A stretch of DNA of 64,000 bases, from NCBI RefSeq assembly GCF_016756315.1, contig NZ_AP024235.1:3162001-3226000 (forward strand), in the 5' to 3' direction. Positions 43,448-45,585 of this stretch are shown here, in pieces (position 1 is the stretch's first letter; each line of letters begins with the position of its first letter). The position numbers and the translations under genes are program-made. The stretch is from Alteromonas sp. KC3. Its GTDB lineage: Bacteria > Pseudomonadota > Gammaproteobacteria > Enterobacterales > Alteromonadaceae. The notes below the pieces were generated by a model. The model had not been told where the DNA came from and did no database searches. It was given only the letters and a program-made list of their open reading frames with translations.

Positions 43448-43752
43448 GACGAAGCTCCTGTTGAGTTAAATTAGTAGAACAATACCTCAAGCGACCTTTA
43501 GAGATGTTTCTATTTTGTATGACACTTCAGCAGACCTATAAAATCTTGCTCAAAGTATAGACAGTATTTATATTTCATTTAATCTGTATCTACATGGTGT
43601 AGTAGAGAGCGTTGTTGTACAAATCTCTACTCTCCATATCGTTTGTATTTTACTGATTTGAGCGTTATTAGAAAGTAGTGCTCTTAGTAAGCCTCTAAAA
43701 GATAATCATTTATTACCCTGTTAACAATGAAATGACAAAAGGAAATTGCTTT
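43448..43752. other. Intergenic region, divergent from upp and the esterase gene
   Basis: No gene is seen. The stretch is AT-rich and contains an inverted repeat AGTAGAGA (43601-43608) / TCTCTACT (43624-43631) with a 15-base loop. It must hold the upp promoter and the esterase promoter, which I cannot place with confidence. Confidence 0.5.
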
Positions 43753-45036
43753 ATGAATTCGCTATCTACGTGCATTCGCCTGATAGTAACCAGTGTTTGT
43801 TTGGTGGTATCGTCAAACGCTTTTGCTGACTGGCAGCGCATCACCCCTGATTCAGAAGTTGTCGTAACACTCCCAAGTGGCGCTGAACAAACTGTTTATC
43901 CCTCTTGTGCCCTACCTGCACTCGTTGGTCCTCAAGGAATAGAGCCAAACCCGTTTTCATTCTATTTTGAGCAAGGTGAAAGCGATAACCTGTTAGTTTA
44001 CTTTAACGGTGGCGGCGCGTGTTGGGACAGTTCAACGTGCCTAGCATCGATGCAGCTAGAGTTCGACAATGACCCGATGAGTAGAGCTGCATATAATCCT
44101 TCTGCGCAATTTGAAAACACACCTGAAGTAGCAGGTGGAATATTCAAAGATGTAGAAGAGAATCCATTCAAATCGTGGTCAAAAGTATTCATTCCTTATT
44201 GCACCGGCGACCTTCACTTGGGATCTTCTGACACAACATATACTGACGACTTAGGCATAGTAACGGGACTTCCAGGCGCTGACGTCACAATTAGACACCG
44301 AGGTCATGATAACGCCATGGTTGTTATGGATTGGCTAAGAGAGCAACTGCAGCAAAATACGCTTTCACCCAACAAGGTGTTGTTAAGCGGCAGTAGTGCC
44401 GGTGGGTATGGCGCAATATTCAACTTCCCTTATTTGCAACAGCTCTTTGGTCGTAAAAAGGTTGCTCTATTTGCAGATGCGTCTCTTGGCGTAATCTCAA
44501 AAGGCTTTACGGAGACTGTGTTGAACTATGGTGGACCGTGGGCTATTGAGGACACACTGCCTGATAATTTCCAATCGCTTATCGGCAATTTCAGCCACCT
44601 TTCGCTCAATAAGCAAGTTATGCTTCGCCTTGCTTATCAATACCCTTGGAATAGGTTTGCGCAATATTCTACCGGGACCGACTTTGTTCAAATACAGTTT
44701 TCTAAAATTTCAGACCAAGTAGCAAAAGGTAACGTTGATCCCTCAACATGGGGAGTAAACGAGTCTGATTTGGGTTACATCTTAGGTTGGCAAATTCAAG
44801 CACACTCATCAGTGCATGCCCTATCTGCATTCACATGGAACTACCAATTCTATCTGGGAGAAGGTACCTGCCACATGGTACTAAACGACTTCTGTGAGGA
44901 TAATGCATTTCCGGTCTCGTCACCCAGCCCATTTTACAATGAGCGAAGTGCCAAAGGTATCTCGTTTAACGAGTGGCTATATACATTCGCAACAACAAGA
45001 CGCTTTAGAGAAAACAGCGTAGCCTACTATCACTAA
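43753..45036 (+). CDS. Secreted pectinacetylesterase-family (Notum-like) hydrolase
   Basis: The protein (427 residues from ATG 43753) has a signal peptide ending SSNAFA, then an alpha/beta-hydrolase core of the pectinacetylesterase family. The oxyanion-loop motif is YFNGGGACWDSSTC, the nucleophile Ser215 lies in LLSGSSAGGYG, and a C-terminal His is in the region around HMVLNDFC. It probably removes acyl groups from a polysaccharide or other ester outside the cell. I choose the second ATG because AAAAGGAAA precedes it by nine bases. It sits near the LacI regulator and GH97 genes, which suggests a carbohydrate role; its substrate is unproven. Confidence 0.75.
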   Translation: MNSLSTCIRLIVTSVCLVVSSNAFADWQRITPDSEVVVTLPSGAEQTVYPSCALPALVGPQGIEPNPFSFYFEQGESDNLLVYFNGGGACWDSSTCLASMQLEFDNDPMSRAAYNPSAQFENTPEVAGGIFKDVEENPFKSWSKVFIPYCTGDLHLGSSDTTYTDDLGIVTGLPGADVTIRHRGHDNAMVVMDWLREQLQQNTLSPNKVLLSGSSAGGYGAIFNFPYLQQLFGRKKVALFADASLGVISKGFTETVLNYGGPWAIEDTLPDNFQSLIGNFSHLSLNKQVMLRLAYQYPWNRFAQYSTGTDFVQIQFSKISDQVAKGNVDPSTWGVNESDLGYILGWQIQAHSSVHALSAFTWNYQFYLGEGTCHMVLNDFCEDNAFPVSSPSPFYNERSAKGISFNEWLYTFATTRRFRENSVAYYH

Positions 45037-45045
45037 ACTCTACAT

Positions 45046-45069
45046 CGCTACCCTACTTGTAGGGTAGCG
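45046..45069. terminator. Hairpin between convergent esterase and XRE genes
   Basis: Arms CGCTACCCTAC (45046-45056) and GTAGGGTAGCG (45059-45069) are perfectly complementary, 11 bases each, around TT. The stem includes the last codons of the XRE gene. No T-run follows, so termination strength is uncertain. Confidence 0.55.
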
Positions 45070-45269
45070 CCATCTGGCATAGTTACCTCAATTTTGACAT
45101 TTCCTCCAACAGCTGCCAAATAGGCAGCAGCGCGCTGCAAAGAAACATCTTGAATACGTTTAGATTCCAGCTTACTGACGCCCGATGCTGTTACTGATAA
45201 CGCCATCGCCACAACTTCTTGCTTCACCCTGTGTTGCTTTCTGATTTCGCCTAATGTGAGTTCTTTCAT
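45048..45269 (-). CDS. Small XRE-type helix-turn-helix regulator
   Basis: The 73-residue protein is almost entirely an HTH domain (LGEIRKQHRVKQEVVAMALSVTASGVSKLE...), with a C-terminal strand GGNVKIEVTMPDGATLQVG like that seen in HigA-type antitoxins. No toxin gene is adjacent, so it is an orphan. A leader with terminator-like hairpins lies directly upstream (45293-45416), and a nine-codon frame (45295-45266) ends in an overlap with its ATG. This suggests controlled expression. Its targets are unknown. Confidence 0.75.
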   Translation of the reverse strand: MKELTLGEIRKQHRVKQEVVAMALSVTASGVSKLESKRIQDVSLQRAAAYLAAVGGNVKIEVTMPDGATLQVG

Positions 45270-45296
45270 TGTTCTTTACCGAGAATAATGGGCATT

Positions 45297-45404
45297 AAAA
45301 AAGCCCAGATAGTTTACACCTTCTGGGCTTTTGCAAAACGTTCTACCTGCGTGCCCAGAAGCCAATAATTGCCCCTGAACACCGATGGTCAGGTGCAATC
45401 AGTA
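45297..45404 (-). ncRNA. Structured leader (attenuator) of the XRE gene or ~110-nt small RNA
   Basis: On the minus strand, a perfect TATAAT (45416-45411) is followed by a first hairpin (45399-45389 with 45378-45368) and then an intrinsic terminator: AAAAGCCCAGA (45332-45322) pairs with TCTGGGCTTTT (45309-45299), ending in T6. An upstream segment TTCTGGGC (45360-45353) can pair instead with GCCCAGAA (45328-45321), which breaks the terminator. This is the logic of a transcription attenuator in front of the XRE gene, whose ATG is about 28 nt further on; alternatively it is a free small RNA. No -35 hexamer is evident. The 316-bp gap 45270-45585 holds no other gene. Confidence 0.5.
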
Positions 45405-45585
45405 ATTAAAATTATAAAAATAGCCTGTAGAAACGTTTCGCATGATAATTCTCTTTCTCACAATAAGTGTGGTTACGCAGTGCTCTTTATACGCAGACTG
45501 CTTGTGTCATTTATCCTTTACCATACCATCAAAATAAGCAATAGCAACGACTTTCCAAATCGGAAAGTTGATAGGTAATCTGATG

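Follow-up and report, generated by a model that had tools for sequence, protein, structure and literature searches.

The question raised by this locus is how the expression of a small, solitary regulator gene is controlled by the RNA that precedes it. On the minus strand of the window (the whole 64,000-nucleotide stretch of DNA that was analysed), a gene for an XRE-type protein is preceded by three copies of one short block, which an earlier note had taken as evidence for either an attenuator or a small RNA. The blocks lie on the minus strand as claimed, as TTCTGGGC (45360-45353), GCCCAGAA (45328-45321) and TCTGGGC (45309-45303), and the T6 of the terminator follows TCTGGGC directly and ends at 45297. 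A ribosome-mediated transcription attenuator requires a translated leader ORF with regulatory codons, an intrinsic terminator between the leader and the regulated gene, and a mutually exclusive antiterminator whose formation is set by the position of the ribosome. The sequence comparisons and folding models described here make it very probable that such an attenuator, built from an aromatic leader ORF, exclusive pairings, a terminator and a helix that reaches from the leader ORF across to the terminator base, stands ahead of the XRE gene. The attenuator reading is upheld by the leader ORF, the conserved consensus fold and the ribosome-position folding, and the proposed opposition of antiterminator and terminator by the pairing analysis and the folding model. 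The leader ORF, the competitor hairpin 2:3 (with the competing segment at 45382-45369), the long-range helix and the upstream operator were missing from the earlier account. The features are listed below in the direction of transcription.

45551 to 45567, minus strand: palindrome CTTTCC-GATTT-GGAAAG, putative XRE operator, recognised by its conservation among leaders
45520 to 45547, minus strand: likely promoter, TTGCTA (45547-45542), 16 nt, TGG-TATGGT (45525-45520), recognised by the fixed operator-TTG spacing
45399 to 45443, minus strand: leader ORF MRNVSTGYFYNFNY and stop, from ATG at 45443 to TGA at 45399
45432 to 45441, minus strand: arm A (GCGAAACGTT) of the long-range helix, from the third base of codon 1 through codon 4, supported by RNAalifold, covariation and the duplex test
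45422 to 45408, minus strand: predicted aromatic stalling codons 8-12 (TAT TTT TAT AAT TTT, Y F Y N F)
45389 to 45398, minus strand: segment 1 (TTGCACCTGA), directly 3' of the leader stop; 1:2 is paired in 94.8% of cells
45369 to 45382, minus strand: segment 2 (GTGTTCAGGGGCAA), partner of segment 1 (read-through) or of segment 3 (termination)
45351 to 45362, minus strand: segment 3 (GCTTCTGGGCAC), partner of segment 2, or of segment 4 (antiterminator)
45333 to 45342, minus strand: arm A' (AACGTTTTGC) of the long-range helix, directly 5' of the terminator stem
45319 to 45332, minus strand: segment 4 (AAAAGCCCAGAAGG), antiterminator with segment 3, terminator with segment 5
45297 to 45311, minus strand: segment 5 and U-tract (TATCTGGGCTTTTTT; segment 5 letters TATCTGGGC, then T6), 3' arm of the intrinsic terminator
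45289 to 45294, minus strand: segment 6 (TGCCCA), conserved past the U-tract, which could pair with freed segment 5
45048 to 45269, minus strand: the regulated gene, for a stand-alone 73-aa XRE/HTH protein, HigA-antitoxin-like by Pfam scores near the cut-off and structure-profile matches

The comparison rests on 31 of 59 Alteromonas genomes, in which a 461-base query finds matches; a search with the XRE protein returns the same 31 genomes when the two sets are compared by eye, and no XRE gene without the leader was found in the 59. Among the homologues checked in 390-395 sampled family genomes, the stand-alone, leader-bearing form was found within the genus and in four further genomes, which the genome collection groups into four different genera. 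These outside genomes supply five leaders of divergent homologues, namely L063 (Alteromonas oceanisediminis), L064 and L194 (bacterium M269), L162 and L071, in all of which an ORF containing aromatic codons is accompanied by a terminator and by TGCCC past the U-tract. The RNA model R1 has strong matches only at the XRE locus in 395 family genomes and weak ones outside the genus (best E 7.7e-6); it misses the leaders of G117, G104, G118 and G059 and is therefore blind to diverged members. In a sample of 219 genomes from the whole class, only two are hit by the XRE profile at E 1e-10, namely the genome of the window itself and one of the four from outside the genus. The protein search listed 41 related clusters, mostly of 50-90 aa, and there is a homologue (P0040) in Ferrimonas marina; the leader counts given here cover the genus and the family sample. 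Bacterium M269 carries two stand-alone small XRE genes, at L194 (G104:C25) and L064 (G104:C1), both of which are preceded by an aromatic leader, with an operator-like palindrome and a long-range helix in each case. The genome of L162 (G059) is grouped by the genome collection in the window's family, yet its protein P0020 bears the name Endozoicomonas sp. G2_1 in the protein search, and name and grouping thus disagree.

The leader, which was recognised by aligning 30 of the 31 upstream regions, contains an ORF with at least three Phe, Tyr or Trp codons at the matching place in all 31 genus loci. Over codons 8-12 pN is 0.063 and pS 0.515, and over codons 2-14 the values are 0.219 and 0.468, uncorrected for relatedness; the set consists of 20 distinct versions out of 28 leaders, and excludes the opening six bases of L062 and, where a version has 15 codons, the final one. 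The Tyr codons swap between TAT and TAC, the Tyr residue is mostly kept, and ten genus representatives have two to three Tyr codons each. Which aromatic residue is used depends on the lineage, L061 being without Phe, and L063 and L064 having Phe and no Tyr. The constraint at the level of codons is thus that of a coding leader, the translation of which is predicted.

Recognition of this ORF changes the meaning of several elements to which other roles had been given. The TATAAT at 45416-45411 is present, but it forms codons 10-11 (Tyr-Asn) of the leader, and a promoter at this position is ruled out. A transcript start near 45404 is unsupported because the TATAAT is made of codons of an ORF that runs on to the TGA at 45401-45399, and a length of about 108 nt from start to terminator is likewise unsupported. 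The palindrome GAAACGTTTC was correctly located at 45439-45430 but not in a -35 region: it sits within leader codons 2-5 and overlaps arm A, and it is discarded as the operator of a regulator. The nine-codon frame at 45295-45266 does overlap the XRE start in the window, but the same overlap is seen in only 13 of 30 leaders, one of these 13 with TTG as the first codon, and the constant part is the letters TGCCC and not the frame, which is rejected as a conserved element.

The likely promoter is found about 105 nt further upstream than the TATAAT, in a conserved block where the palindrome is followed after 3 bases by a -35-like hexamer starting with TTG and, 16 bases further on, by TATGGT or a close variant of it. 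The TTG starts 3 bases past the operator in 27 of the 28 genus leaders, while anything from 74 to 233 nt can separate the operator from the leader ATG; from this arrangement we infer a transcription start near 45513. The pattern TTTCC-N5-GGAAA with a matching outer base is perfect in 22 of 33 leaders, and the palindrome scores at least 8 of 10.5, on a scale without a shuffle reference, in 32 of 33, being absent in L058. A perfect CTTTCC-N5-GGAAAG occurs once in genome G000, at the XRE locus, and the perfect palindrome is present in 34 of the 59 genus genomes, including some without the XRE gene. The XRE protein probably controls its own promoter through this putative operator beside the -35 box.

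Evidence for a structured RNA comes from both single-sequence and consensus folding. The 110-nt stretch 45404-45295 folds at -41.8 kcal/mol, compared with -27.8 +/- 3.5 for 200 shuffles, none of which is as low (4 standard deviations). When the 28 distinct genus leaders (31 minus three identical copies) are given to RNAalifold with no structure supplied, it yields 2:3, 4:5, the long-range helix 45441-45432:45342-45333 and a two-pair stem. The three helices 2:3, 4:5 and A:A' are paired in 97.6% of cells and contain 6 pairs changed on both sides, a result that none of 500 shuffles equals; the terminator stem has four pairs with changes on both sides, and an intrinsic terminator of the kind an attenuator requires therefore stands between the leader and the XRE gene. 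The alternative structure 1:2, 3:4, 5:6 is paired in 95.8% of cells, but it hardly varies and is no better than shuffles, and it is therefore without covariation support. In the antiterminator structure covariation is almost absent. The earlier note would have given up the attenuator if close relatives had retained the XRE gene but not the alternative pairing; instead, the cores of 3:4 and 4:5 are kept in all 28 distinct genus leaders. The letters TGCCC past the U-tract are invariant in the same 28 and are present in L063, L064, L071, L162 and L194. They would be made too late to affect termination, and could instead pair with segment 5 or affect XRE translation.

The long-range helix pairs arm A (45441-45432) with arm A' through ten pairs, one of them G-U. 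Fifteen representatives drawn from the 33 leaders, 10 from the genus and 5 from outside it, were used in a duplex test, and the A:A' duplex was found in 14, none of which was equalled by more than 16 of its 300 shuffles; it was not found in L063, for which 157 of 300 shuffles are as good. In four of the five leaders from outside the genus the pairing is kept with entirely different letters: TTCGTTTCTTT:AAAGAAACGAA in L064, GAATATATTC:GAATATATTC in L071, GAATATATTT:AAATATATTC in L162 and CTTTTCGAAT:ATTCGAAAAG in L194. The helices of L071 and L162 are one compensatory change apart, and in these two leaders the arm overlaps the first Tyr codon instead of lying wholly 5' of it; within the genus, L062 has two compensatory changes. 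Since the letters have changed in several lineages and the pairing has been kept, the helix is directly testable. Its predicted role is to keep the untranslated RNA terminating in most of the representatives.

The dependence of the alternative pairings on translation was modelled by folding the RNA in the state just before segment 5 is synthesized, with a ribosome footprint placed on each codon and with two more footprint sizes at the compared positions in the 15 representatives. In the window leader the probability of the antiterminator, P(3:4), reaches 1.00 when the A site holds the first Tyr codon and falls to 0.00 when the ribosome is at the stop codon. The contrast between the first aromatic codon and the stop is at least 0.95 in 10 of the 15 representatives, the window leader among them, and is lower in L071 (0.82), L063 (0.50), L049 (0.37), L194 (0.15) and L060 (0.01). 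Shuffled leaders match the contrast in 0 of 60 cases for 12 representatives, 1 of 60 for L071, 1 of 60 for L194 and 3 of 60 for L060, but this is a weak null because the shuffles also destroy segment 2. The model thus gives a mutually exclusive antiterminator set by ribosome position, clearly in 10 of the 15 representatives and less clearly or not at all in 5.

When no ribosome is present, the window leader has a P(3:4) of 0.03, which rises to 0.98 once A' is barred from pairing. The no-ribosome value is at most 0.1 in 8 of the 15 representatives and 0.29-0.44 in 3; in the other four, L045, L049, L052 and L194 (0.97-1.00), the model does not predict that untranslated RNA terminates. Barring A' clearly raises the no-ribosome value in 9 of the 15 (the window leader, L050, L051, L058, L061, L062, L064, L071 and L162), leaves L060 near 0 and L045, L049 and L052 at or near 1, and lowers it in L063 and L194, contrary to the role assigned to the helix. 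With the ribosome at the stop codon, barring A' raises P(3:4) by more than 0.3, to 0.58-0.99, in L045, L049, L051, L052, L058, L064 and L162; in the window leader the value is then 0.01, and segment 2 alone suffices. In the equilibrium fold of the full RNA the terminator is favoured at all positions tried (P at least 0.84), and the switch must therefore be kinetic, being decided during transcription.

The mechanism to which these results point is the following. Transcription would start near 45513. If charged aromatic tRNA is scarce, the ribosome would stall at the Tyr/Phe codons 8-12. There it would cover arm A but not segment 1, and 1:2 and 3:4 would already have formed by the time segment 5 is synthesized, so that the XRE gene would be transcribed. 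A ribosome that reaches the stop codon would instead cover segment 1; segments 2 and 3 would then pair, 4:5 would end transcription, and arm A would be available to A'. In the absence of a ribosome, A:A' would favour termination. In the model the XRE gene appears to be switched on only by stalling at the leader Tyr/Phe codons, and the XRE protein would in addition act on its own promoter through the palindrome adjoining the -35 box.

The same attenuator could respond to a different signal, if the leader were a general sensor of translation stress that reacts to ribosome drugs or to slow decoding of UNN codons by tRNA with an under-modified base 37. The drift of the residue among Tyr, Phe and Trp is in keeping with this, as are the raw counts of UNN codons, 6 of 13 in the window leader and from 3 of 13 (L052, L061) to 7 of 13 (L063, L071) in the 15 representatives, although UNN codons are an automatic consequence of Phe, Tyr and Trp. 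The E. coli toiL uORF is described as sensing several ribosome drugs (PMC12121999). A generic stall would, on the other hand, have no need of the Y-x-Y-N core, which is under strong purifying selection in the genus, and we regard the general sensor as unlikely, if a reading to be kept in mind.

Two further readings would dispense with the attenuator itself. A strong terminator and a conserved RNA are also what would be expected if a trans-acting small RNA were made here and the XRE gene merely lay past its terminator, but the constraint on codons and the mutually exclusive pairings indicate control in cis, the promoter implied for such an RNA is a coding stretch, and in the genus search the leader was found only with the XRE gene, with strong R1 matches confined to that locus in the 395 genomes. 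We consider this very improbable; of the two possibilities originally offered the attenuator stands, and nothing found here favours a small RNA as a by-product. The terminator might alternatively be constitutive, with the XRE gene transcribed from elsewhere and the alternative pairings arising as by-products, as the constant preference of the modelled full-length RNA for the terminator would allow. The U-tract is only 27 nt from the XRE start codon, however, the upstream operator and promoter hold a fixed spacing, and both the leader ORF and the long-range helix are conserved, which makes a constitutive terminator highly unlikely.

The Pfam scores of the XRE protein are just below the cut-offs (HTH_37 26.0 against 27, HTH_31 24.8 against 27 and HTH_3 21.7 against 23 bits), relatives such as P0003 and P0018 bear HTH Pfam labels, and none of 9 family members matches an NCBIfam model. 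Among solved chains its profile is nearest to HigA2 (PDB 7EWC) and HigA3 (6LTY), with which it has in common the HTH core and a C-terminal strand; unlike these antitoxins it stands alone, with a size of about 70-78 aa, and it lacks the roughly 30 N-terminal residues found ahead of the match in HigA2. Judged by its sequence, the protein is a stand-alone relative of HigA antitoxins. No HigB/RelE-like toxin gene is adjacent to it, its neighbours in the window being a pectinacetylesterase-like and a cupin-like gene. Upstream of 12 of the 13 other homologues whose upstream sequence was read there is what we take, by eye, to be the end of a RelE/HigB-like toxin gene.

Ribosome-mediated attenuators are the textbook case of feedback on amino-acid biosynthesis, and the his leader operates by a multi-segment logic. 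None of the Rfam families scores at its gathering threshold anywhere in the window; the top family is His_leader (RF00514), with 26.4 bits against a gathering score of 49, and the element would therefore work in a his- or phe-like manner, yet lies outside any described family. The his leader and the pheA and trp attenuators likewise have a short ORF rich in regulatory codons, alternative hairpins and an intrinsic terminator, but here the target is a lone DNA-binding protein and not a biosynthetic operon, the regulatory codons are a mixture of Tyr and Phe, with Trp in other leaders, and default termination is predicted to come from the long-range helix between leader ORF and terminator base. 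Attenuation of this type is described as a common control of amino-acid biosynthetic operons (PMC1183508); attenuation as such is already known, and it is the target that is unusual. The nearest precedent found is toiL, a stall-sensing uORF ahead of the topAI-yjhQ toxin-antitoxin genes, which works via the topAI ribosome-binding site and Rho (PMC12121999), whereas here an intrinsic-terminator switch is predicted and there is no toxin gene. In the literature searched (titles and abstract openings, subscription papers being mostly outside its scope), no such leader was found in Alteromonas or before an XRE gene.

It is possible, and perhaps not far short of probable, that these leaders form an Alteromonadaceae attenuator family which links the charging of aromatic tRNA, or slow UNN decoding, to a regulator of antitoxin type that has no toxin and controls its own gene. 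The position of the ribosome would be read twice: by segment 1, on the 3' side of the stalling codons, and by arm A, which lies in the leader ORF at or before those codons and would pair with the terminator base. If this is true, starvation would be an input to a regulator and not feedback on a pathway; since the output is a DNA-binding regulator of antitoxin ancestry, the same device would let stress in amino-acid supply or in translation set a transcription programme in motion. How such a leader stays off when it is not translated may be answered by the long-range helix.

The genes that might be affected along with the XRE gene can be considered from its surroundings and from the operator. 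In the window a pectinacetylesterase-like 434-aa gene (43732-45036, plus strand) is convergent to the XRE gene and separates it from upp. Past the XRE gene there is a long convergent ORF in 9 of the 31 genus loci, and a same-strand ORF of 210-234 codons in 22, at a distance of 0 to about 190 bases; the gene between XRE and upp therefore comes and goes in the genus. Twelve of the same-strand ORFs were read by eye as upp. This makes upp a possible co-regulated gene; in the window the 434-aa gene intervenes.

A regulon defined by the operator was sought and rejected, since TTTCC-N5-GGAAA is not commoner than its reversed control in the four genomes searched (8, 5, 7 and 11 sites against 12, 7, 10 and 8 in G000, G010, G039 and G013), and no wider regulon is visible from the palindrome sites in these genomes. 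Of the 7 other sites in G000, 5 are inside ORFs and 2 between ORFs, and the spacer sequence of neither intergenic site is repeated among the sites of the three other genomes. These two, at L218 position 1497 and L220 position 1533, are possible further targets of the XRE protein. They lie just upstream of ORFs of 312 aa and 298 aa, the latter of which looks LysR-like by eye.
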